From the NCBI GenBank assembly GCA_016193065.1, contig JACPSX010000055.1:1-16980 (forward strand): a stretch of DNA of 16,980 nucleotides, in the 5' to 3' direction. Of this stretch, positions 1 through 15,185 are shown one piece after another. Below the pieces are notes generated by a model. That model was not told the DNA's origin and made no database searches. It saw only the letters and a program-made list of their open reading frames with translations. Position numbers and translations under genes: made by a program. How positions within the stretch are numbered: position 1 is the stretch's first letter; each line of letters begins with the position of its first letter. Source of the stretch: Candidatus Tectimicrobiota bacterium (GTDB lineage Bacteria > JACPSX01).

Positions 1-1448
1 TTCCGGTCTTCCGCGGCGACCGTCAACAAGTGGCGGGGCTGGTCGCGATCAGTTACTTCCTTCCGGAGGGGCTGGCCACCAAGGTCTACGACATCAAAGA
101 GGCATTTGAGGAATACAAGCAGAAGAAGATCTTCAAGGCTCCGATCAAAGCGCAGTACGTGGTGCTTTTCCTGATGTTCACGCTCTTGATCGTGTTCTCG
201 GCCACCTGGTTTGGTTTTTATCTGGCCAAGGGGATCACGGTTCCCATCCAGGAACTGGTGGAAGGAACCCGGGCCATCGCGGGCGGCAAGCTGGACTTTA
301 CCATCAGCGCGCGTGCTGACGACGAGATCGGCATGCTGGTGGACTCCTTCAACAAGATGACCGCGGATCTTCACCGCAGCCAGCAGGAACTCGAGCGCAC
401 GAACGCGGACCTGCGCCAGACCAATGTGGAGTTGGACCAGCGCCGCAGCTACATGGAAACGGTCCTGGAAAACATCACGACGGGGGTTCTCTCTCTGGAT
501 CCGAAGGGCCGGATTACCACCTTCAACCGGGCCGCCGAGCGCATCCTGGGGATCGATGCGGCCAGCGCCAAGGGGCGGCACTATCGGACCGTTTTCCGCT
601 CCGATCACATGGATCCCGTGCGGGCTCTCATGAAAAAGATGAACGAAAACGGAGCCACGAGCACGACGGCCCAGATGCAGCTCTCTTCCGGGGGGCGAAA
701 GATCACCCTGATCACCAGCGTGACTCACCTGCAGGACCGGGAGGGGAACTTCCTGGGAATGGTCATCGTGTTTGACGATTTGAGCGAGCTCATCAAGGCC
801 CAGAGGACCGCGGCCTGGCAAGAGGTGGCCCGGGGAATTGCTCACGAGATTAAGAACCCCTTGACCCCCATTCAGCTCTCCACCCAGAGACTCCGCAAGA
901 AGTTGGTGGAGGTCATCAAAGGGATGGTTGACGAGTTTTCGAAATTCGCCCGCATGCCCCTGCCGAACCCCAAACCCAACAATCTGCATCAGATCATTGA
1001 GGACGCCACGGGCCTGTACCGGACTTCCGTGCGAAAAATCGAGATCACCTCGTCCTACGATCCGAATGTGCCTGTCATGGAGCTGGATCGCGAGCAGATG
1101 CAAAGGGTGTTCATCAACCTGCTGGAGAACTCGGTGGATGCCACACAGGGGAAGGGACGCATCGAGATCCGGACCTCCCTGGACGCGCAGCGCCAGAGGG
1201 TCTCCATCGAGGTGAGTGACGACGGGGTCGGCATTCCCGCAGAGGACCGGGACAAGCTCTTTGCGCCGTACTTTTCCACGAAGAAGAGGGGTACGGGATT
1301 GGGACTTGCCATCGTCCAGCGAATCGTGGCGGATCATAACGGCACGGTCTACGTGCAGGATAACAAACCCCGCGGCACGAAATTCGTGATTGAACTTCCT
1401 CTGGGACCCCACAAGGCCCAAGCCAGCAAGAAGATCATTTCGGTCTAG
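1..1448 (+). CDS. ntrY: NtrY-like membrane sensor histidine kinase, 5' end outside the window, DHp domain shortened
   Basis: The frame is open from base 3, so the gene starts upstream; the GTG at 30 is internal. In order I see a transmembrane helix (about 150-230), a HAMP domain with a DDEIGMLVDSFN core (about 230-390), a coiled-coil-like stretch, a PAS domain (about 450-770), a phosphotransfer motif AHEIKNPLTP with its histidine codon at 843-845, and a HATPase_c domain with N box NLLENSVDA (about 1117-1143), DDGVGIP and GTGLGLAIV. The AWQEVARGIAHEIKNPLTPIQLS signature is typical of NtrY. NtrY kinases autophosphorylate and pass phosphate to NtrX. Oddity: between RLRKK and VEVIKGMVDEFSKFARMP (near 900-908) about 21 residues usual in the family are missing, so the two DHp helices are abnormally short. 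It ends 13 bases before its cognate regulator. Family call is strong; activity is uncertain. Confidence 0.9.
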   Translation, partial: PVFRGDRQQVAGLVAISYFLPEGLATKVYDIKEAFEEYKQKKIFKAPIKAQYVVLFLMFTLLIVFSATWFGFYLAKGITVPIQELVEGTRAIAGGKLDFTISARADDEIGMLVDSFNKMTADLHRSQQELERTNADLRQTNVELDQRRSYMETVLENITTGVLSLDPKGRITTFNRAAERILGIDAASAKGRHYRTVFRSDHMDPVRALMKKMNENGATSTTAQMQLSSGGRKITLITSVTHLQDREGNFLGMVIVFDDLSELIKAQRTAAWQEVARGIAHEIKNPLTPIQLSTQRLRKKLVEVIKGMVDEFSKFARMPLPNPKPNNLHQIIEDATGLYRTSVRKIEITSSYDPNVPVMELDREQMQRVFINLLENSVDATQGKGRIEIRTSLDAQRQRVSIEVSDDGVGIPAEDRDKLFAPYFSTKKRGTGLGLAIVQRIVADHNGTVYVQDNKPRGTKFVIELPLGPHKAQASKKIISV

Positions 1449-1461
1449 GGGAGGAAGCATC

Positions 1462-3663
1462 TTGAAAAAGGGCAGTATTCTGATCGTCGATGACGAGAAG
1501 TCCATCGTTTCCTCCCTGGAGGGAATTTTGGAAGACGAGGGCTTTCAGGTGATCAGCGCCAAGGATGGTCAGCAGGCCCTGCAGATTATCCGGGGGCAAA
1601 ACCCCGACCTGGTCCTCCTGGACATCTGGATGCCGGGAATGGACGGCATCGAGGCTCTGCAGGCCATCAAGAACCTGAGGGCCGACCTGGGAGTCATCGT
1701 CATGTCCGGCCACGGCAGCATCGATACGGCCGTCAAGGCCACCAAGCTTGGTGCTTTTGATTACATCGAGAAGCCTCTCTCGATGGACAGCCTCCTCCTT
1801 ACCGTGAAGCACGCCCTGGAACAGCAGCGGCTTTTGCGACAGAATGTGGAGCTGAAGCGCAGAGCCAACAAGGGGGAGAATCTGGTCGGCGAGAGTTCCC
1901 GGACCCTGGCGGTCCGCAAAAGGGTTGCAGCCGCGGCCCGGCGGGATGACCCGGTCATGATCCTGGGTGAAAACGGGACCGGAAAGGAACTGGTGGCGAG
2001 GCTGATCCATCGGGAAAGCGGGCGGCGGGATGCCCCGTTTGTCAAGCTGAACTGCTCGAGTCTCCCCGCCGAGGATTGGAAACGAGTCTTGTGGGGGGCC
2101 GAGGGAGCCGCCTCCAAAGAAGGGGAATTCACCCAGGGGAAGCTCGCCCAGGCCGAAGGGGGCACCCTGTTCTTGGACGACGTGGAATATCTGGGGCCGG
2201 AGATCGAGGCGGCCCTGGCCCGCTCTCTGAAGAGCAAAACCTTTACCAGGGCAGGCAGGTCCGAAACTCTCCCCCTGGACGTGCGGATTATGGCCGCCAC
2301 CACCAAGCCCTGGACCCGCGGAGATCTGGTCGGCAACCTGTCCTCCGAGTTCCTGGCCTTGTTTTCCTCTGCGCCGATCCAACTGCCTCCGCTGCGCCAG
2401 CGCAAGGAGGACATTCCCGCGCTGGTAGATCATTTTCTCCGGGAACTGGCGGAGGAATACGGCAGGGGGAGCAAGGAGATGGATGAAGCGGCCATGCAGA
2501 TTCTGATGAATCATGACTGGCCCGGCAACGTGAAGGAGCTGCAGAACATCCTGGAGCGGATCTTCATCACAGTACCCTGGGCCCGGATTTCGCGGGAGGA
2601 TATCCCCGCCGCGATCCGCAAGAACCCGGCACTGGCCGGAAACGGGTCCGCGTGGGACGGCGCGCAGTCACTGAAGGATGCCCGCAGGTTGTGGGAGCGG
2701 GAATTCATCGGCTACAATTTGCGCCGCCATCGCGGCAGCCTGGCCAAAACGGCCGGGGAGCTTGGGATTTCTGTTCCCAGCCTGGAGCAGAAGATCAAAT
2801 CTCTGAAAATCTTCGTTCCCAGGAGGGGTGAGTTCCAACCTCAAAGGAGCCTGAAGAGAAGCGTGGTGCTGTGCGGACAGGGGCTCCACTCCGGACTCAA
2901 GGGCGGGTTGATACTGAACCCCCTGCCTCCCAACAGCGGGATCCATTTCGGGAACATCACCTCGGGCGAGAGTATCCCGGCCTTGGTGGATTACGTCTAT
3001 TCAGCGGAGTACGCGACCTCTTTGCGAAGGGGCGTTGTGATTGCCCGCACCATCGAGCACTTGATGGCTGTCCTGCACATGTACGGAATCTCGAACCTGC
3101 TGGTCAAGATCAACGATGAGGTCCCCATCATGGATGGCTCGGCGCTGGACCTGTGCCAGTTGATCGAGGATGGCGGCGTCGAGGAACAGGGGGCGGAGGC
3201 GGAGGAGATCATCGTGAAGGAAACCGTCACCGTGGGCAATCCGCAAAACGGCGGCAAGCACATCCGGATCGAGCCCGCGCAGACTCTTAGTGTCACCTAT
3301 ATCCTGGACTATCCTCGTCCGATCGGTCACCAGGAGTTTACCTTTACCCCCTGCGGAGTTGAGGACTTCAAGCGGGAAATCGCTCCGGCGCGGACCTTCG
3401 GCTTTCTCAAGGACATCGAGAAGCTGGAACAGATGGGGCTGGGAGGAGGGGGCCGCCTGCACAACGTGATCCTGGTGGATGAGGACAGAATCATCAACGC
3501 CCCCTTGCGGTTTCCCGATGAGTTCGTGCGCCACAAGATCCTGGACGTGCTCGGGGATCTCTACCTGCGGGGGAAGCGGATCCGGGGGAAGGTCACGGCC
3601 TGCATGACAGGTCACGCGGACAACGTGGAGTTGGTTAGGCGGATCGGGGCGGCTCAGCTATGA
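1462..3663 (+). CDS. lpxC: NtrX-like response regulator fused in frame to LpxC (UDP-3-O-acyl-GlcNAc deacetylase)
   Basis: I start it at TTG 1462 (733 aa), with GGAGG at 1450-1454 seven bases upstream; the open frame reaches back to 1390 without a ribosome site. Residues 5-125 are a receiver domain (D10/D11, phospho-acceptor D54, IEKPLS lysine). Residues 145-390 are an AAA+ domain of the NtrC family with Walker A GENGTGKE (169-176), but the GAFTGA loop is gone (212-226), Walker B ends DD instead of DE (239-240), and arginine-finger positions are S294 and L300. Residues 410-450 are a Fis-type helix-turn-helix. After a linker of about 12 residues, 463-733 is a full LpxC with TIEH (E532, H533), [20 protein letters not shown] (H691, D695) and GHADN (H718), so all zinc and catalytic residues are present. 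LpxC catalyses the committed step of lipid A synthesis. The stop overlaps purM (ATGA). Confidence 0.93.
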
Positions 3664-4636
3664 TTACCTACCGCGACGCCGGGGTAGATCTGAATGCGGC
3701 CGGGGCCCTGGTCGGCAAAATTGCGGCTCTGGCCCGATCCACGTTTCGCCCCGAGGTCCTGACGGATATCGGGGGGTTTGCCGGACAGTTTCGGCTTCCC
3801 GCCGGATACCGGGAGCCCGTGCTGGTGGCCTCCACGGACGGGGTTGGCACCAAGGTGAAAATTGCCCAATCTCTGGGCCTCCACCATACGGTGGGCATCG
3901 ATTTGGTGGCCATGTGCGTCAACGATATTGCCGTCCAGGGGGCCGAACCCTTGTTCTTTTTGGATTATCTGGCCACCGGCCGGCTCGATCTGGGGGTGGT
4001 CGAGAAGATCATCGAAGGGATCGTGCGGGGGTGTAAGCAGGCCGGGTGCGCCCTGCTGGGCGGGGAGACGGCCGAGATGCCCGGGCCATCGATGGTCGTT
4101 TCATCGAAAAGGGGGACACCGTCGTGGGGATTCCTTCCAGTGGGCTCCACAGCAACGGCTATTCCCTGGTGCGGAAGGTGCTGGAGACGGCCGGCCTTCA
4201 TCTGGAAGAGGTTGTGTCTGGGCTGGGGCGGAGTCTCGGGGAAGAGCTCCTGGAGCCTACCCGCATCTACTCCCCCCTGATGCAAGGCCTGATGGCACGC
4301 TGCCCGATCCGCGGGGCGGTTCACATTACAGGAGGGGGGTTGATCGAGAACATTCCTCGTATCTTGCCCCGGGGGTTGGGAGTCGATCTCGACCCGGGGA
4401 AGTGGAGGATCCCGCCAATCTTCGAGCTGTTGCGGGAAAGGGGCGGCATCCCGCGCGAGGAAATGTTCCGCGCCTTCAATATGGGGGTCGGAATGGTCTT
4501 GATCCTGTCCGGCAAGGATGCTGGCGAGGGTCGGGAATGGCTGCAGGGGCAAGGAGAGGAGTCCTTCCTCATCGGGGAGGTCATCGAACTGCCGGAGTCG
4601 GAGACCTGTCGGGTAAAGATCTCGGGAGGAACATGA
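3660..4636 (+). pseudogene. purM: Phosphoribosylformylglycinamidine cyclo-ligase, interrupted by an internal loss of about 64 nt
   Basis: PurM converts FGAM and ATP to AIR in de novo purine synthesis. The ATG at 3660 overlaps the previous stop (ATGA). Frame one reads 142 good PurM residues with STDGVGTK (58-65), [12 protein letters not shown] and GGETAEMPG, then goes out of frame after 4085 and would stop at 4280. The rest of PurM continues in another frame from about 4088: [47 protein letters not shown], ending at TGA 4634-4636. Between the halves the family normally has about 21 more residues (in E. coli, MYHGEDYDVAGF and onward to the EIIDG region). Adding 21 to the 142 and 182 residues present gives the usual length of about 345, so roughly 64 nt are missing. 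Everything else looks conserved and purN is intact, so an assembly error or a very recent deletion fits best. Confidence 0.88.
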
Positions 4637-7836: not shown

Positions 7837-9408
7837 ATGGGGCAGGAACTCATTCGGGTAATTGAACAGATTGGTCGGGAGAAGGGAATTTCCCGGGAAA
7901 CCCTGGTGCAGGCCGTGGAGGCTGCTGTGGTCTCGGCTTCGAAGAAGAGGTTCGCCAGCATGGGCAACATGGAGGCCCGCCTGGATCCCGAATCGGGCGA
8001 AGTGGATCTGTTTAACGTGAAGGACGTCGTGGAGGTCGTGGAAGACAGCGAGACCCAGATTTCCCTGGCCGAAGCAAGAGCCGTAAATCCCAATGCCGAC
8101 CTGGGAGGGAAATTGGTGATCCCCGTGCAAATGGAGGGATTGGGCCGCATCGCGGCGCAAACGGCCAAGCAGGTGATCGTCCAGAGAGTTCGTGAAGCGG
8201 AACGGGAGATCGTTTTCAACGAGTTCCGGGGCCGGGAAGGTGAACTGGTCAACTGCGCTGTGATGCGGATCGAGCGCGGGAACATCATCGTCGACATGGG
8301 TAAGACGGAAGGGATTCTGCCGCGCCGCGAGCAGTCTTTTCGCGAAGTGTTCCGGCGCGGTGAACGGATCAGGGCCTATATCGTGGAGGTGAAGAAAACT
8401 CCCAAGGGGCCCCAGGTCATCCTGTCGCGCACCCACTCGGGGTTCCTGAAGAAACTCTTCGAGCTGGAGGTTCCTGAGGTGGCCGAGGGGACGGTGGAGA
8501 TTGTGGCCGGAGTTCGGGAGCCGAGCGGTCGGGCCAAAATTGCCGTGCGGGCCAAGGAAAAGGACGTGGACCCTGTCGGGGCCTGTGTTGGAGTACGAGG
8601 GTCCAGGGTGCAGGCGATCGTTCAGGAGTTGCGCGGAGAAAAAATCGACATTATCCAATGGACGGACGATCCCGTGGATTTCGTAAAGAACGCCTTGAGT
8701 CCCGCGAAAGTTTCCAGGATTACCGCAAATCCTCAGGAAAAGGCCATGGAAGTCATCGTGCCTGACGACCAACTCTCCCTGGCCATCGGTAAGAAGGGGC
8801 AAAACGTCCGGCTCGCTGCCAAGCTGTCGCAGTGGAGAATTGACATCAAGAGCGAGGCCGAACACGGCAAGCAGGAAGCGGAACGGCAGAAAATAGCCCT
8901 GGAAAAGGCCCGCGGGGATCTAACCGGGGTTCAGGCCCTGAAGGGAGTCGAAGAGGAAACAATCCAATTGCTCATGGGAAACGGGTTCACCAATCTCACC
9001 TCGGTGCTGGAAGCGCCTCTGGAGAGATTGCAGGAGATTCCCGGAATGGACCAGGAAAAAGCTCTAAGGATTAAAGAGCTTGCCCATGCCTTCGTGCGCG
9101 GAGAGACCCAGGAGTCGCCCGGGGCGGCTGATGAGCGGGAGATCCCGGCCTTGACGGTCTCTGAAGATTCCCAGTCCCAAGGGCACTCCTTGCTGGATCT
9201 GGAAGGAGTGGGGGAGAAAACGGCGCATCTGCTTGAGGAACACGGTATCGCCACTGTTGAGGTCCTGTCCCAGGCAAGCGAGGAGAAATTAACCGAGATC
9301 CCCGGGATCGGCAGGGCTCGGGCCGGGGGATTGATTCAGAAAGCGCGGGAGTTCATTACAGGCGGTAGTGGGGGATCAGGTGATGAAAAGGACGGAGGAA
9401 GTGAGTGA
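7837..9408 (+). CDS. nusA: Transcription termination/antitermination factor NusA
   Basis: NusA binds RNA polymerase and nascent RNA and modulates pausing, intrinsic termination and antitermination. In order the 523-aa protein has the polymerase-binding N-terminal domain (about 1-130), an S1 domain (about 135-200), and two KH domains with VGACVGVRGSRVQAIVQEL and IGKKGQNVRLAAKLS (about 205-345). A C-terminal part carries two helix-hairpin-helix acidic repeats (about 360-430 and 450-510, each ending in an IPG motif). Full C-terminal repeats make it E. coli-like in length, longer than Bacillus NusA. The start is ATG 7837 with GGGGAGG at 7822-7828. The 3' end overlaps the next gene by about 26 bases. 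As NusA acts on leader terminators, it may influence the hairpin before rimP; that is inference. Confidence 0.97.
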   Translation: MGQELIRVIEQIGREKGISRETLVQAVEAAVVSASKKRFASMGNMEARLDPESGEVDLFNVKDVVEVVEDSETQISLAEARAVNPNADLGGKLVIPVQMEGLGRIAAQTAKQVIVQRVREAEREIVFNEFRGREGELVNCAVMRIERGNIIVDMGKTEGILPRREQSFREVFRRGERIRAYIVEVKKTPKGPQVILSRTHSGFLKKLFELEVPEVAEGTVEIVAGVREPSGRAKIAVRAKEKDVDPVGACVGVRGSRVQAIVQELRGEKIDIIQWTDDPVDFVKNALSPAKVSRITANPQEKAMEVIVPDDQLSLAIGKKGQNVRLAAKLSQWRIDIKSEAEHGKQEAERQKIALEKARGDLTGVQALKGVEEETIQLLMGNGFTNLTSVLEAPLERLQEIPGMDQEKALRIKELAHAFVRGETQESPGAADEREIPALTVSEDSQSQGHSLLDLEGVGEKTAHLLEEHGIATVEVLSQASEEKLTEIPGIGRARAGGLIQKAREFITGGSGGSGDEKDGGSE

Positions 9409-10048
9409 GCGGATCCGGACCTGCCTGGGCTGCCGGCGCCAGCTTCCCCAGGGGGAATTCCTGCGGATACTCCGGGGCCCTGACGGTGTTTTAGTTCCGG
9501 ACCTGAAGAAGCGCTTGCCCGGGCGGGGCGGCTATGCATGCTTTGACCGGCAGTGTTTGCAGGAAGCCTTGAGTCCGACCCGCTTGCGGCGTGCCTTTCG
9601 AGGGGAGAGCACGGAGAGCATCTCTGTGGATGCCTTTGTGGAGCAACTGCTCCTTCAACTCAAGGAGAGCGTGAAGAATCTTCTGGGCATGGCCTGCAAA
9701 GCCCGGAAGGCAGTCTTTGGAAAGACGGAGGTTAGAGAGGCGCTGGAGAGCGGGCTTCTCCGGTTTGTGGCTGTGGCCTCGGATTGTGAGCAGTCCCGGC
9801 GCCAGGAAATGACGGACAGGTGCGAGAAGCGAACGGTTCCCTATCTCGCCGCCCTATCCGTGGCCGATCTGGGACAGATCAGCGGGCGAGGAGTCATGGA
9901 TTTTGTGGGGATTATAGACAGAGGGTTTGCCGAGCAGATGATCGTTCTCGGCGACCGGCTGCGGCGACTTGACCTTTTGGAAAGGCGCCCGGATGCGCTT
10001 CCTGTTTCCACGGGGTCCAGAAAATCCCGGTCCAGAGAAGGGAGGTGA
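9383..10048 (+). CDS. YlxR (DUF448) and L7Ae-type RNA-binding domains in one protein
   Basis: The N-terminal half (about 1-90) is YlxR-like: [38 protein letters not shown], the [11 protein letters not shown] cysteine pattern and RRAFRG. The second half (about 95-195) resembles the L7Ae/YlxQ kink-turn RNA-binding family: [48 protein letters not shown]. YlxR and YlxQ are separate neighbouring genes between nusA and infB in Bacillus; the joined form occurs in other bacteria. Exact roles are unsettled, though RNA binding in translation or RNA processing is likely. I chose ATG 9383 (221 aa), with GGGGGA at 9370-9375, over GTG 9368. Either way it overlaps nusA. Its stop lies inside the infB ribosome site. 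The basic C-terminal tail ([13 protein letters not shown]) is not conserved. Confidence 0.88.
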
Positions 10049-10053
10049 TGGGA

Positions 10054-12243
10054 ATGTCAAATGTTCGGGTGCACGAGCTGGCCAAGAACCTGGGAATGAC
10101 CAGCAAAGATCTCATTGGTCTGTTAGCCAAGGAGGGGATTCCTGCCAAGAGCCACATGAGCGCTTTAGATCCCGAGACGGTGGAGCTTATTGTGGCCTTG
10201 CTGAAAGAAGAGAAGACGCCAACCGCAGCCCCTCCGGCACAAGCGGAGCCCGCTGTGAGCAAGAAGACGAAGGCGGCTGTCAAGAAAAAGGGAGACTCTC
10301 TCCAGGCTGCCGCTGCTCCGACCGAGCCTGCCGTCTCGAAGGAGCCTGCGCCCGGGGTGATCCCGAAGAGTTTGCATGCCGAGGTGTCCCCCACTTCCGT
10401 CGAAGCGCCTGTCGAGGTACCGGAAGAGGTAACACCCCAGCCGGCTCCGGCCGAGGCGCCGGTTTCCGCAGTTGGTCGCGAGCCGGCCGAAGCGGGAAAG
10501 ATTATCCGGATCGGGGAGGCAATTACCGTTAAGGAGCTCTCGGAGCGTCTCTCGCTCAAGCCCCAAGAGGTCATTAAAAAGCTCATCGAAATGAAGGTCA
10601 TGGCTTCCATTAATCAGCTTCTCGACGTGGAAGCGGCCAGGTCCATCTCCGAAAAGTTCGGGTTCCGCGTTGAGGGACCGGCCCCGGGGGAGGAAGGGGG
10701 CGAAGTCGAAGATGTGGAAGAACTCGCGAGATTGGAGCCTCGGGCCCCGGTGGTCACCATCATGGGGCATGTCGACCACGGCAAGACGTCCCTTTTGGAC
10801 GCAATCCGCAAGACCAACGTAACGGGAGGCGAAGCGGGGGGGATTACACAGCATATTGGGGCCTATGAGGTTCAAACCGACGGCCGCAAGGTGACCTTCC
10901 TGGATACACCGGGACACGAAGCGTTCACCGCCATGCGCTCCAGAGGGGCGCAGGTAACGGACATCGTGGTGCTCGTGGTTGCGGCGGACGACGGGGTAAT
11001 GCCGCAGACCCGGGAAGCCATTGCGCACGCGCGGGCCGCCAAGGTTCCCATTGTTGTGGCCGTGAATAAGATCGACAAACCCGGCGCCAATCCCGAGCGC
11101 GTCCGGCAGCAGCTCTCGGAAGAGGGGCTGGTGGCCGAGGCCTGGGGAGGAGATACGATCTATGTGGAGGTCTCCGCCAAGAAGAGTTTGGGGATTGAGA
11201 ACCTCCTGGAGATGATTCTCTTGCAGGCGGATATTTTGGAACTCAAGGCCAACCCCCACCGTCCGGCAAAAGGGGTGATCATCGATTCCAAGCTGGATCG
11301 GGGACGTGGCCCTGTTGCCACGGTCCTTGTGCAAAGTGGAACTCTGCGGGTGGGCGATCCGTTTGTGACCGGCACACACTTCGGGAAAGTACGGGCCTTG
11401 CTGAATTACAGGGGGCAAAAGATCGATGTAGGAGGGCCCTCGACTCCGGTTGAGGTTTTGGGACTTTCCGGTGTCCCGTCGGCGGGGGACTCGTTCAAGG
11501 TCGTCAGCGATGACCGGAAAGCCAGGCAAATCGCGGCCGCGCTTCTGCAAAAACAGCGGGACAAAGAACGGACCCGGATGACGCGAGTGACCCTGGAAGA
11601 TCTGTTCGCCCAGATTCAGCAAGGGGCTGTCAAGGAACTCAACATTGTTCTAAAAGCGGATGTCCAGGGTTCCGTCGAGGCGATTTCCGATGCCCTGGAG
11701 AAGCTGAGCACGGCAGAGGTGCGGCTCAAGGTGATTCACGGAGACGCGGGGGGGATCACCGAGACCGACGTGACTCTGGCGCTGGCCTCGAATGCCATCA
11801 TCATCGGGTTCAGTGTCCGGCCCACGCCTCAGGCTCACCAGTTGGCGGATCGCGAGCAAGTCGACGTGCGTCTCTACACCGTCATTTACGAGGTGGTGAA
11901 CGACATACGGGCTGCGATGGAAGGGTTGCTCGAGCCCACGATGAAGGAGAAGGTGCTGGGCCGGGCCGAGGTCCGCGAGGTGTACATCATTTCCAGGGTC
12001 GGTACGGTTGCGGGGTGCGTGGTCTCCGATGGGCTGATCCCGAGGGGGTCCGAAGCCCGCCTGGTGCGGGACAACGTGATCGTTTACGAGGGTAAAGTCG
12101 GCTCTCTTCGTCGGTTCAAGGAAGACGTCAGGGAAGTCGCCGCGGGCTATGAGTGCGGCATCGGGCTGGAGAAGTTCAACGACATCAAGGTGGGAGACGT
12201 GATCGAGGCGTTTGCCTACGAGGCAGTAGCTCGAAAACTGTGA
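10054..12243 (+). CDS. infB: Translation initiation factor IF-2
   Basis: IF-2 is the GTPase that brings initiator fMet-tRNA to the 30S subunit and promotes subunit joining. The 729-aa product has an N-terminal IF2_N module (1-50), an Ala/Pro/Glu-rich unstructured linker (about 55-145), a second IF2_N module (about 150-205), and the G domain. The G domain carries G1 GHVDHGKT (238-245), switch motif GGITQHIG, G3 DTPGHEAF, G4 NKID and G5 SAK. Beta-barrel domain II, domain III ([13 protein letters not shown]) and the fMet-tRNA-binding domain ending [17 protein letters not shown] follow. I chose ATG 10054, with GGGAGGT at 10040-10046 placed correctly; GTG 10045 and ATG 10048 are in frame but overlap that site. 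It lacks the long N-terminal extension of enterobacterial IF-2. Confidence 0.97.
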
Positions 12244-12250
12244 GGTCCAG

Positions 12251-12538
12251 TTGCGCGTGGTGGTAGGGGTTTGCACGGTAGAACTTCTGATCCCGTCCAT
12301 GGGGTCCCTCAAGGGGAAGAGGCAGGTCGTCAAGAGCCTCATCAGCCGGCTCCAGAATAAGTTCAAGGTCTCCGTGGCTGAGGTGGATGAAAACGACAAA
12401 TGGCAAAAGGCGATCATCGGGATCGCTGCTGTCAGCAATGAAGCTAACCATGCAACCCGTGTTCTCCAAAGCGTGGTGAATTACATCGACCGGGAAACCG
12501 CCAGCCAGTTGCTGGACTATTCGATCGAGATTCTGTAG
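12251..12538 (+). CDS. YlxP-like small protein, DUF503 family
   Basis: The 95-aa protein matches the DUF503/YlxP family: VVVGVCTVELLIPSMGSLKGKRQVVKSL at the N terminus, then the VSVAEVDENDKWQKAIIGIAAVSNE core. Members typically sit between infB and rbfA, as here, which points to ribosome assembly or initiation; the molecular function is not established. The start is probably TTG 12251, seven bases after the infB stop, with GAGG overlapping that stop. The next in-frame alternatives (GTG 12257 and 12260) would cut into the first strand. Its stop is 10 bases before the rbfA-nrnA gene. I see nothing unusual in it. Confidence 0.85.
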   Translation: MRVVVGVCTVELLIPSMGSLKGKRQVVKSLISRLQNKFKVSVAEVDENDKWQKAIIGIAAVSNEANHATRVLQSVVNYIDRETASQLLDYSIEIL

Positions 12539-12548
12539 GGGAAATGCC

Positions 12549-13874
12549 GTGTTCTTGGGGAAGAGATCGGAACGGGTTGGGGAGATGATCCTGGCCGAGA
12601 TTTCCCGGCTGCTGTTACGGGAGGTGAAAGACCCGAGAATCGGCTTTGTGACTTTGACGGGGATTGATCTCAGCGATGATCTGAGACATGCCAAGGTATA
12701 CATCAGCGCGCTGGGAGATGAGGGGACGAAGCAAAAGACCCTGCAAGGTCTGTCGAGCTGCGCGGGTTTTCTGCGTGGCCGGTTGGGACGTGAACTCCGA
12801 CTGCGGTACGTTCCGGAGCTTGATTTCCACTGGGACACATCCATCGCACACGGAGTGAGGATCTCGCATGTGATTGACGAGTTGAAGGAGTCCAGGGAAG
12901 CGGCGGCCGTCTTCGCCATGACACAGGTCGCGGAGCTGATCCAGAACAGCCAGTCTTTTGTCATCACCAGCCATATTGATCCCGACGGCGACGCGCTGGG
13001 CGGCTTGCTGGGCCTGGGGCTTTTTTTGCGGCAGATGGGCAAACAGGTGGCCTTGAAACACGTGCAGCCCGTCCCGGAGACCTACCGGTTTCTGCCGGGA
13101 TCGGAACTCATTGAAGTCTGCCCTGTAAACCGGGAGCCCTACCAGGTGGGAATCATGGTGGACTGTGGAGACATGTCCCGCGTCGGCACGCTCTTCCAGG
13201 AGAGGCATCTGATTGGAACGTTCATCAACATCGACCATCACGAAAGCAACGGGGGGTTTGGTGACTACAATCTCTTGGACCCGAAAGCCGCGGCCTCCTC
13301 GGAAATTGTCTACCGGCTCATTTCGGCTGTGGATCCGGGAAAGGCAATTACCGCGGATATCGCCACGAACCTGTTCACGGGGATTCTGGTCGATACGGGA
13401 TCGTTTCATTACGGGAACACGACGCCCGAAGTCCTGATGGTGGTCGCTGACCTGGTGGCCCGGGGGGCTTCACCTGCCGGCATCACCAGGAACCTGTATG
13501 AACAAAGGTCCCTGCCCCAACTCCGTCTTTTGGGGGAAGCTCTGCTGACAGTCGAATGCGCGCTTGCCGGCAGGGTTTCTCTCATGGTCGTTTCCGAGGA
13601 GATGTACCGGCAGACGGGCACCACAGCCGGTGACACGGAGGATCTGGTGAACTTTGCCGGCTCTCTTGCTGGGGTGGAGGTGGCGATCCTGCTGAAGCAG
13701 AAGGGGACCGCTCAATACAAGGCGAGCCTGCGGGCCAAGGACCGGGTCAATGTGGCTTTGGTGGCCGAGCGGTTCGGAGGAGGTGGGCACCCCAATGCGG
13801 CGGGCTGCCATATCGATGGTACTCCAGAGGAGGTCAAGGCCCGTTTGCTCTCCGTGATCCAGGAATTTCTGTGA
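12549..13874 (+). CDS. rbfA: RbfA ribosome-binding factor fused in frame to an NrnA-type DHH phosphoesterase
   Basis: Start GTG 12549 has AGGGGA at 12537-12542. Residues 1-115 are RbfA, a 30S assembly factor: KRSERVGEMILAEISRLLLREVKDPRIG, then LRHAKVYIS, then FLRGRLGRELRLRYVPELDFHWDTSIAHG. Residues 124-441 form a full-length NrnA-like enzyme (nanoRNase/pAp phosphatase): ITSHIDPDGDALGG (139-152), VDCGDMSRVG, IDHHESN with D229-H230-H231, GILVDTGSFHYGNT, and the DHHA1 motif FGGGGHPNAAGC. All metal-binding motifs are present. No stop or ribosome site separates the parts. ATG 12918 (M124) sits exactly where a free NrnA would start, but the nearest purine-rich site (12894-12900) is about 17 bases away. 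The two genes are often adjacent, so fusion by frame joining is easy. A single-base sequencing error cannot be excluded. Confidence 0.9.
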   Translation: MFLGKRSERVGEMILAEISRLLLREVKDPRIGFVTLTGIDLSDDLRHAKVYISALGDEGTKQKTLQGLSSCAGFLRGRLGRELRLRYVPELDFHWDTSIAHGVRISHVIDELKESREAAAVFAMTQVAELIQNSQSFVITSHIDPDGDALGGLLGLGLFLRQMGKQVALKHVQPVPETYRFLPGSELIEVCPVNREPYQVGIMVDCGDMSRVGTLFQERHLIGTFINIDHHESNGGFGDYNLLDPKAAASSEIVYRLISAVDPGKAITADIATNLFTGILVDTGSFHYGNTTPEVLMVVADLVARGASPAGITRNLYEQRSLPQLRLLGEALLTVECALAGRVSLMVVSEEMYRQTGTTAGDTEDLVNFAGSLAGVEVAILLKQKGTAQYKASLRAKDRVNVALVAERFGGGGHPNAAGCHIDGTPEEVKARLLSVIQEFL

Positions 13875-14794
13875 ACGGCTTTCTCAATCTGAATAAAGAA
13901 GCAGGAATGACCTCTCACGATGAGGTGCTTCGGGCCCGGGAGCTTCTGGGGATCAGGAAAGTCGGCCATCTGGGCACTTTGGATCCTCTGGCAACGGGGG
14001 TATTGGTCCTGTGCATCGGCAGTGGTACGAAGCTGGTCTCTTATTTAGAGCACACCTCAAAGGCCTACCGGGCAACGGTGGCTCTGGGGATGGTGACGGA
14101 TACCATGGATATTTCTGGCCGTGTTTTGGAAACCCGGCCAGTCGCCCCCCTTTCGCCGGACGCCGCCTCCCAAATCCTGGAGCGGTTCTGCGGGCAAATC
14201 GAACAGATCCCGCCCATGTATTCGGCCGTTAAAGTCCGAGGCAACCGCCTCTACAAACTGGCCCGCCGCGGGATTGAGGTGGAGCGCCAGCCGCGTCAGA
14301 TCACCATTTTCCGCCTGGTCCTCCAGGATCTGCGGGAAAATTCCCTGACCATCGAGATTGAATGCTCGAAGGGGACTTACATCCGGACTCTGTGCGCGGA
14401 CATCGGTCAGGCGCTGGGGTGTGGAGGGTGTCTTAGGTCTCTGGTCCGAACGAGAGTCGGGCCCTTCAGACTGGAGGAATCGTTGACCTATGAGCAATTG
14501 TGTGGGATCCGGGAGCGGGGTGAGGTCGGCAAGGTCCTGTGGTCTCTGGATCAGGTTCTCTCGGACTATCCGCAAGTCGTTGTCCCCGAGAAGGTTGCTG
14601 ATCGGGTCCGGCACGGTTCCTCATTCCGTGAGGATTGCCTTGCGGGAGGGGGCTCCCCGGTGTCTACGGGTACGATGATGCGCGTTTATGATCCTTCTGG
14701 GAACCTTCTGGCTTTAGCAGAACTCCAATGGGATCAAATGGATAAAGGGCTTTCTCGGATCTTTCGGATCTCCAGGCTTCTGGTCCCGGGGTGA
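13871..14794 (+). CDS. truB: tRNA pseudouridine-55 synthase
   Basis: TruB makes the universal pseudouridine 55 in the T-loop of tRNA. The GTG at 13871 overlaps the previous stop (GTGA), with AGGA at 13861-13864, so translation is coupled to rbfA-nrnA. The 307-aa protein has the catalytic motif GHLGTLDPLATGVL with the nucleophile D38, then AYRATVALGMVTDTMDISGRV, IPPMYSAVKVRGNRLYKLARRG, and CSKGTYIRTLCADIGQALGCG with the LRSLVRTRVGPF segment. A C-terminal PUA-like part follows. Length and motifs are normal. It closes the rimP operon; ribF, its frequent downstream neighbour, is not here, and rpsO follows after a 121-base gap. Confidence 0.96.
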   Translation: MNGFLNLNKEAGMTSHDEVLRARELLGIRKVGHLGTLDPLATGVLVLCIGSGTKLVSYLEHTSKAYRATVALGMVTDTMDISGRVLETRPVAPLSPDAASQILERFCGQIEQIPPMYSAVKVRGNRLYKLARRGIEVERQPRQITIFRLVLQDLRENSLTIEIECSKGTYIRTLCADIGQALGCGGCLRSLVRTRVGPFRLEESLTYEQLCGIRERGEVGKVLWSLDQVLSDYPQVVVPEKVADRVRHGSSFREDCLAGGGSPVSTGTMMRVYDPSGNLLALAELQWDQMDKGLSRIFRISRLLVPG

Positions 14795-14848
14795 TTTCCT
14801 GGACCGACCCGAGGTCGCAGCGCAGAGAAACTGCCAGTAAGGATGGAC

Positions 14849-14877
14849 TTTACAAGCATTGATCGTCCTGCTAACAT
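14849..14877 (+). promoter_or_regulatory. Likely sigma-70-like promoter for rpsO-pnp
   Basis: TTTACA at 14849-14854 and TAACAT at 14872-14877 are 17 bases apart, in the only AT-rich part of the 121-base gap after truB. Transcription would begin near 14884, leaving a short AT-rich leader with AAGGAGA at 14904-14910 before the rpsO ATG. The -35 box is a good match and the -10 box matches four of six positions. Confidence 0.5.
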
Positions 14878-14915
14878 ACGCAAATTAAATTTAGAAAGGA
14901 AATAAGGAGAAGAGG

Positions 14916-15185
14916 ATGCCCTTAGAGCAGACGAAGAAAAACGAGGTTATCCAAGCCTATCGAAAGCACGAGAAAGACACAGGCTCGTCCGAAGTACAAA
15001 TTGCCCTATTGACCGAGAGGATTTCTTACTTGACCAACCACTTTCAGACTCACGCCCGGGATCATCTTTCCCGCCGGGGTTTGCTCAAGCTTGTCGGCCG
15101 CAGACGGAGGCTCCTGGACTATTTGCGACGGAACGATTTTCAGCGCTACCAGACGGTCATCGAGAGGCTGGGGCTTAGGCGCTAG
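14916..15185 (+). CDS. rpsO: 30S ribosomal protein S15
   Basis: S15 is a primary binder of the central domain of 16S rRNA and forms a bridge to the 50S subunit. The 89-aa product has the usual length and motifs: [29 protein letters not shown], then [32 protein letters not shown], then [19 protein letters not shown]. The start is ATG 14916 with AAGGAGA at 14904-14910. pnp begins 21 bases after the stop, the classical rpsO-pnp pair. In several bacteria S15 represses its own mRNA through a structured leader. The leader here is short, and I could not recognise a known S15 leader fold. Confidence 0.97.

Follow-up and report, generated by a model that had tools for sequence, protein, structure and literature searches.

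Does the rbfA-nrnA reading frame in the 16,980-nucleotide stretch of contig JACPSX010000055.1 from a Candidatus Tectimicrobiota bacterium (hereafter the window) encode a genuine two-domain protein, or have two ordinary neighboring genes been merged by an error of the assembly, and what would a ribosome assembly factor gain from carrying a nanoRNase? The frame is open throughout and encodes 441 residues (Table 1). Its N-terminal part is a complete RbfA: the Pfam family PF02033 scored 110 bits against a cut-off of 34.7, which identifies a full-length RBFA domain, and the NCBIfam rbfA model TIGR00082 (model length 115) matched residues 5-114 with 104 bits (cut-off: 51.15). In the C-terminal part, the Pfam domains DHH (PF01368, residues 137-279, E-value 3e-14) and DHHA1 (PF02272, residues 355-441, E-value 2e-12) are both essentially full length, and the NCBIfam NrnA model matches residues 124-425. 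The NrnA equivalog NF053633 was covered over nearly its whole length with 102.9 bits, below its cut-off of 350; the window protein is NrnA-like and lies outside this narrow equivalog. Domain matches of such strength rule out a chance similarity.

The residues H142, D146, D148, D205, D229-H230-H231 and D282 are all present, as is the GGGGH motif at 410-414. H142, D146, D148, D205, H230, H231 and D282 correspond, in order and spacing, to the seven metal ligands of Bacillus subtilis NrnA, namely H20, D24, D26, D80, H103, H104 and D156 (PMC9757072). The fold-recognition analysis matched the NrnA part to the structures of TmPDE (5o1u), Rv2837c (5jju) and Bacillus NrnA (5ipp). Thus, the original prediction of a complete RbfA joined in one 441-residue protein to a complete DHH/DHHA1 phosphoesterase with all metal motifs agrees with the profile searches and with the ligand list of the B. 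subtilis enzyme. The degradation of pAp, proposed there next to that of nanoRNA, is doubtful: NrnA degrades RNAs of 2-4 nt from the 5' end and is poor on pAp, and the NrnA-like proteins assayed exhibited no significant pAp hydrolysis under the assay conditions used (PMC9757072).

Table 1. Features of the window discussed in the text (positions count from the first nucleotide of the window)
Feature	Position	Strand	Remarks
purM, broken	3660..4636	+	TIGR00878 positions 1-141 and 162-331 matched in different frames
Host operon	7837..15185	+	order nusA-ylxR-infB-ylxP-rbfA-nrnA-truB-rpsO
nusA	7837..9408	+	host operon
ylxR-L7Ae	9368..10048	+	host operon
infB	10045..12243	+	host operon
ylxP/DUF503	12251..12538	+	named by eye; no NCBIfam match
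rbfA-nrnA	12549..13874	+	441 aa; GTG start, TGA stop
RbfA KH-type domain, residues 6-108	12564..12872	+	PF02033, E-value 7.3e-32, profile 1-104 of 105
Joint, residues 114-123	12888..12917	+	10-residue RbfA tail without extra linker; from tail length and AlphaFold2 model
ATGA	12918..12921	+	Met124 and out-of-frame TGA; possible start of a free NrnA
NrnA part, residues 124-441	12918..13871	+	DHH, DHHA1, metal and GGGGH motifs intact
truB	13871..14794	+	host operon
rpsO	14916..15185	+	named by eye

The operon context of rbfA-nrnA fits the role of RbfA in the maturation of the 30S subunit, a role that is itself predicted here. A search of the genome indicated that rbfA-nrnA is single-copy, and a second copy of NrnA was looked for and not found at the sensitivity used. 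In the same operon, a single 226-residue ORF (ylxR-L7Ae) holds both a YlxR (DUF448) and an L7Ae domain.

The two parts of the protein meet abruptly. The 10-residue tail that follows the RbfA core is ordinary for a free RbfA (median 8), and no other fusion compared in this work has so short a joint, the secure ones having ~7-12 more residues than the window protein between RbfA and the catalytic His. The distance from Met124 to H142 (18 residues) is at the short end of the range found among separate nrnA genes. The coordinates of the joint are as originally described: the ATG codon of Met124 (12918-12920) is overlapped by a TGA (12919-12921) in the +1 frame, and this Met124/ATGA arrangement looks like a relic of an overlapping rbfA-nrnA gene pair. 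The same ATGA would be expected after a natural one-base fusion of genes that overlap by -4, so it points to a recent event or to an artefact and favors neither. Up to Met124, the codons of the tail favor the fused frame (score: 1.69) over the TGA frame (score: -1.95) and the third frame (score: 0.82). None of the sequences AGGA, GGAG or GAGG occurs in the 14 bases examined upstream of Met124; we rejected a ribosome-binding site at this position as a sign of separate genes, because two other sampled -4 overlaps lack one too. The AlphaFold2 model (mean pLDDT 87.8, ~75 near the joint; pTM 0.65) predicts one helix, residues 97-133, running through the joint, which could plausibly act as a short rigid arm from RbfA to NrnA; with a pTM of 0.65, the relative orientation of the domains is unsure.

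Comparison with other genomes bears on whether such an architecture exists at all. Our sample comprised 386 diverse genomes, 194 of them with a strong NrnA match. Across many phyla, most of the loci examined carry rbfA and nrnA as separate genes that adjoin, touch or overlap; the commonest layout of separate pairs is the -4 overlap (34 of 89, a count that is descriptive only, as many of these pairs come from related Verrucomicrobia). Both domains share one frame with no stop in five of the 194 genomes (the window, G033, G132, G270 and G025, all checked at the ORF level), and among these 194 the rate of natural fusion is ~2%. Long open frames or same-frame matches had also suggested G051, G128, G085 and G011, which were rejected since their genes lie in separate ORFs.

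G033 belongs to the family f34, in which the members G179 and G314 have a separate nrnA, while G132 and G270 (f133) represent two genera and are the only members of their phylum that were covered. The phylum of G025 was searched using the G025 fusion protein itself as a query: in family f26 all 28 loci with a readable joint are fused (13 genera; the count includes G025, and 4 of the 28 loci are cut off by a contig end beyond the joint), and a fused ORF is also present in G396, a member of another family of this phylum. In f26 the end of the RbfA core is separated from the catalytic His by 38-41 residues with a shared pattern GEF..E...R....L.DL.PP..L...L, and this near-constant length and conserved pattern of the linker indicate that the fused form is maintained. 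The metal residues are invariant across 12 aligned fusions from four groups. In the NrnA domain of G025, an acidic stretch of ~40 residues is inserted after the DHH motif and before the metal motif that comes next; the other aligned members of f26 have a shorter insertion or none. In a rapidly built tree of the NrnA domains (85 sequences), with many deep branches unresolved, the fusions fall in separate places and need four changes, at least two of them required by the starred branches; the NrnA domain of the window groups weakly with f34 (SH-aLRT 90). Such a distribution argues for a recurrent origin of the fusion.

Altogether, the clade-wide fusions and the scattered single-ORF fusions elsewhere indicate that the RbfA-NrnA architecture is real and recurrent. 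Hence a sequencing error, which the original prediction wanted to see ruled out, is excluded as an explanation of the architecture, and the fusions in other genomes by which that prediction was to be checked do exist as single ORFs in G033, G132, G270, f26 and G396. Relatives with separate overlapping genes, which it regarded as evidence to the contrary, form the majority; since fused relatives exist too, they do not decide the matter.

For the copy in the window the question is harder, as a search of its phylum for relatives gave back no genome but its own, so that this copy rests on a single assembly of its species and phylum, and that assembly is prone to lesions. A scan with a codon model over 312 kb of this genome, the calls of which are approximate, yielded 15 frame lesions (4.8 per 100 kb, or about one per 21 kb), compared to 2 in a total of 391 kb of controls (0-1.1 per 100 kb; both came from the 180 kb of one complete genome, and there was none in the 100 kb taken from another or in the 111 kb from six other genomes). 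Family models confirmed 4 of the 15 calls. On the same contig, purM misses ~20 codons and changes frame near position 4085, and on other contigs of this genome dctM (L110, ~2233), ubiD (L113, ~6343) and a ParA-like gene (L109, ~1768) have each lost ~12-24 residues together with a change of frame, which suggests an assembly-wide habit of dropping short blocks. At 30-1448 of the window, the HisKA domain of an NtrY-like sensor kinase is left with its first half only, the frame being kept (PF00512 2-30 of 66), perhaps a lesion of the same kind. Another ORF of the window (1390-3663, 757 residues) combines an NtrX-type response regulator with LpxC; it was considered as a second artefactual fusion and rejected, because the same ORF is found in G072, G041, G047 and G005 (45-52% identity), by which comparison the NtrX-LpxC fusion is real and shared.

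Given the lesion-prone assembly and a joint with an ATGA and no linker, the window copy is less certain than the architecture. We nevertheless regard it as probably a natural gene fusion. It is quite possible, though we do not favor it, that the organism has ordinary adjacent or overlapping genes and that they were merged in this contig by a small indel within the RbfA tail or by the loss of a short block from it. The residue-losing frame lesions in purM, dctM, ubiD and the ParA-like gene, the in-frame loss in HisKA and the excess of lesion calls over the controls all speak for such an accident, as do the ATGA, an RbfA tail typical of the free protein and the shortest linker of all fusions. 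The original statement that one indel would recreate two overlapping genes is likewise sound, considering how common the -4 overlap is and that the assembly does carry frame lesions. Against an accident, lesions spaced ~21 kb apart would hit a target of ~30 bases, and in the right frame, with a probability of less than 0.1%; among the ~190 sampled genomes whose NrnA match is strong there are three other fused lineages, independent of one another, although the ~2% rate of natural fusion has to be discounted for the linker that the window copy lacks. In addition, the joint removes nothing from either domain, and both domains are without missing conserved residues, unlike the products of the other lesions; the codon usage of the tail favors the fused frame, and an equivalent natural fusion would likewise show the ATGA. 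For this one copy, therefore, an error keeps an appreciable probability, in view of the frame lesions; our gradings of the natural and the artefactual origin are a matter of judgement and not a computed posterior.

Relative to known systems, the window protein shares the complete KH-type domain (residues 5-114) with RbfA of Escherichia coli (7afl, 7bog) and Staphylococcus aureus (8byv); however, it carries a whole enzyme where an ordinary RbfA stops ~8 residues beyond the core. With the nanoRNases of the NrnA/TmPDE/CnpB type (5o1u, 5ipp, 5jju) it shares DHH and DHHA1, the seven metal residues and GGGGH, at 24-31% identity to the solved structures in the fold alignment; those enzymes are stand-alone proteins, whereas the NrnA of the window has RbfA at its N-terminus. 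Separate overlapping rbfA-nrnA pairs exhibit the same order and operon, but with a stop codon that is absent from the window. The fusions of f26, f133, G396 and G033 have the same domain order in one ORF and keep the catalytic residues as the window protein does.

How could such a protein have arisen and what might it do? In many bacteria rbfA and nrnA are neighbors, often overlapping, in the nusA-infB-rbfA-truB-rpsO operon, and we propose that the stop codon between them was lost in this lineage, giving one protein. RbfA sits at the neck of the 30S subunit near h28, h44/h45 and the 3' end of 16S rRNA (PMC9917171; PMC8201178), and the C-terminus of S. aureus RbfA forms a helix that reaches S7 on the 30S (PMC9917171). 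In the window protein, the N-terminal RbfA would bind the neck of the immature 30S, and its C-terminal helix would continue into the first helix of NrnA, so that the C-terminal enzyme, predicted to hydrolyse RNAs of 2-4 nt, would lie next to the pre-30S, on the side of the head, S7 and the mRNA path, for as long as RbfA stays bound. Both domains are presumed active, for NrnA on account of the conserved residues, and the gain would consist mainly in co-production and localisation, with no new chemistry. The most economical interpretation is a two-function protein whose enzyme would be carried to the maturing 30S, and a coupling of nanoRNA removal to 30S maturation appears plausible. We tentatively go one step further, to a suggestion that we consider rather unlikely: the fusions could be an undescribed, selected architecture, in which the nanoRNase rides the maturing 30S and either clears 2-4-nt debris of 17S trimming or shuts the mRNA path until RbfA leaves, thereby linking RNA turnover to ribosome maturation, with the widespread rbfA-nrnA gene pair as its looser, unfused version.

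A real fusion may also have other consequences, or none; the gradings that follow overlap with the case of a natural fusion and are not intended to sum to one. It is possible, if doubtful, that the fusion is functionally neutral, two housekeeping enzymes having been joined by chance in a tight operon, with each working as before: rbfA and nrnA adjoin in many phyla, which makes the loss of a stop easy, and the fusions are few and scattered, but f26 has kept the fusion together with a conserved linker of near-fixed length over 13 genera. An improbable variant is that initiation inside the frame, at Met124, yields a free NrnA beside the fused form. The ATG does stand at a start position known from separate nrnA genes, yet the bases upstream of it lack the motifs mentioned above, and a Met in a comparable place is absent from the linker of G033 and from most of those in f26. 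Quite improbable in our view is a role of NrnA mainly as a steric block which, fixed on the C-terminal helix of RbfA, would cover part of the mRNA path on the immature 30S, even though the continuous helix 97-133 of the AlphaFold2 model would suit it and a similar proposal exists for the long C-terminal part of mitochondrial RBFA; the catalytic residues, needless for a pure blocker, are invariant in the aligned fusions, the orientation of the domains in the model is unsure, and the lengths of the linkers vary among the lineages.

The families of both parts are known, and rbfA-nrnA pairs are common. For the fused form, family-wide in f26 and apparently of more than one origin, we came across no description in the literature searched, nor for a functional or operon link of RbfA with NrnA or DHH proteins, although such fusions may show in domain databases. 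RbfA and NrnA are each well studied and their genes are neighbors in many bacteria, and the conservation of a fusion throughout a clade is strong evidence, from genomes, for cooperation between its two partners. The fusions of f26 and f133 make the link between RbfA and NrnA directly testable.
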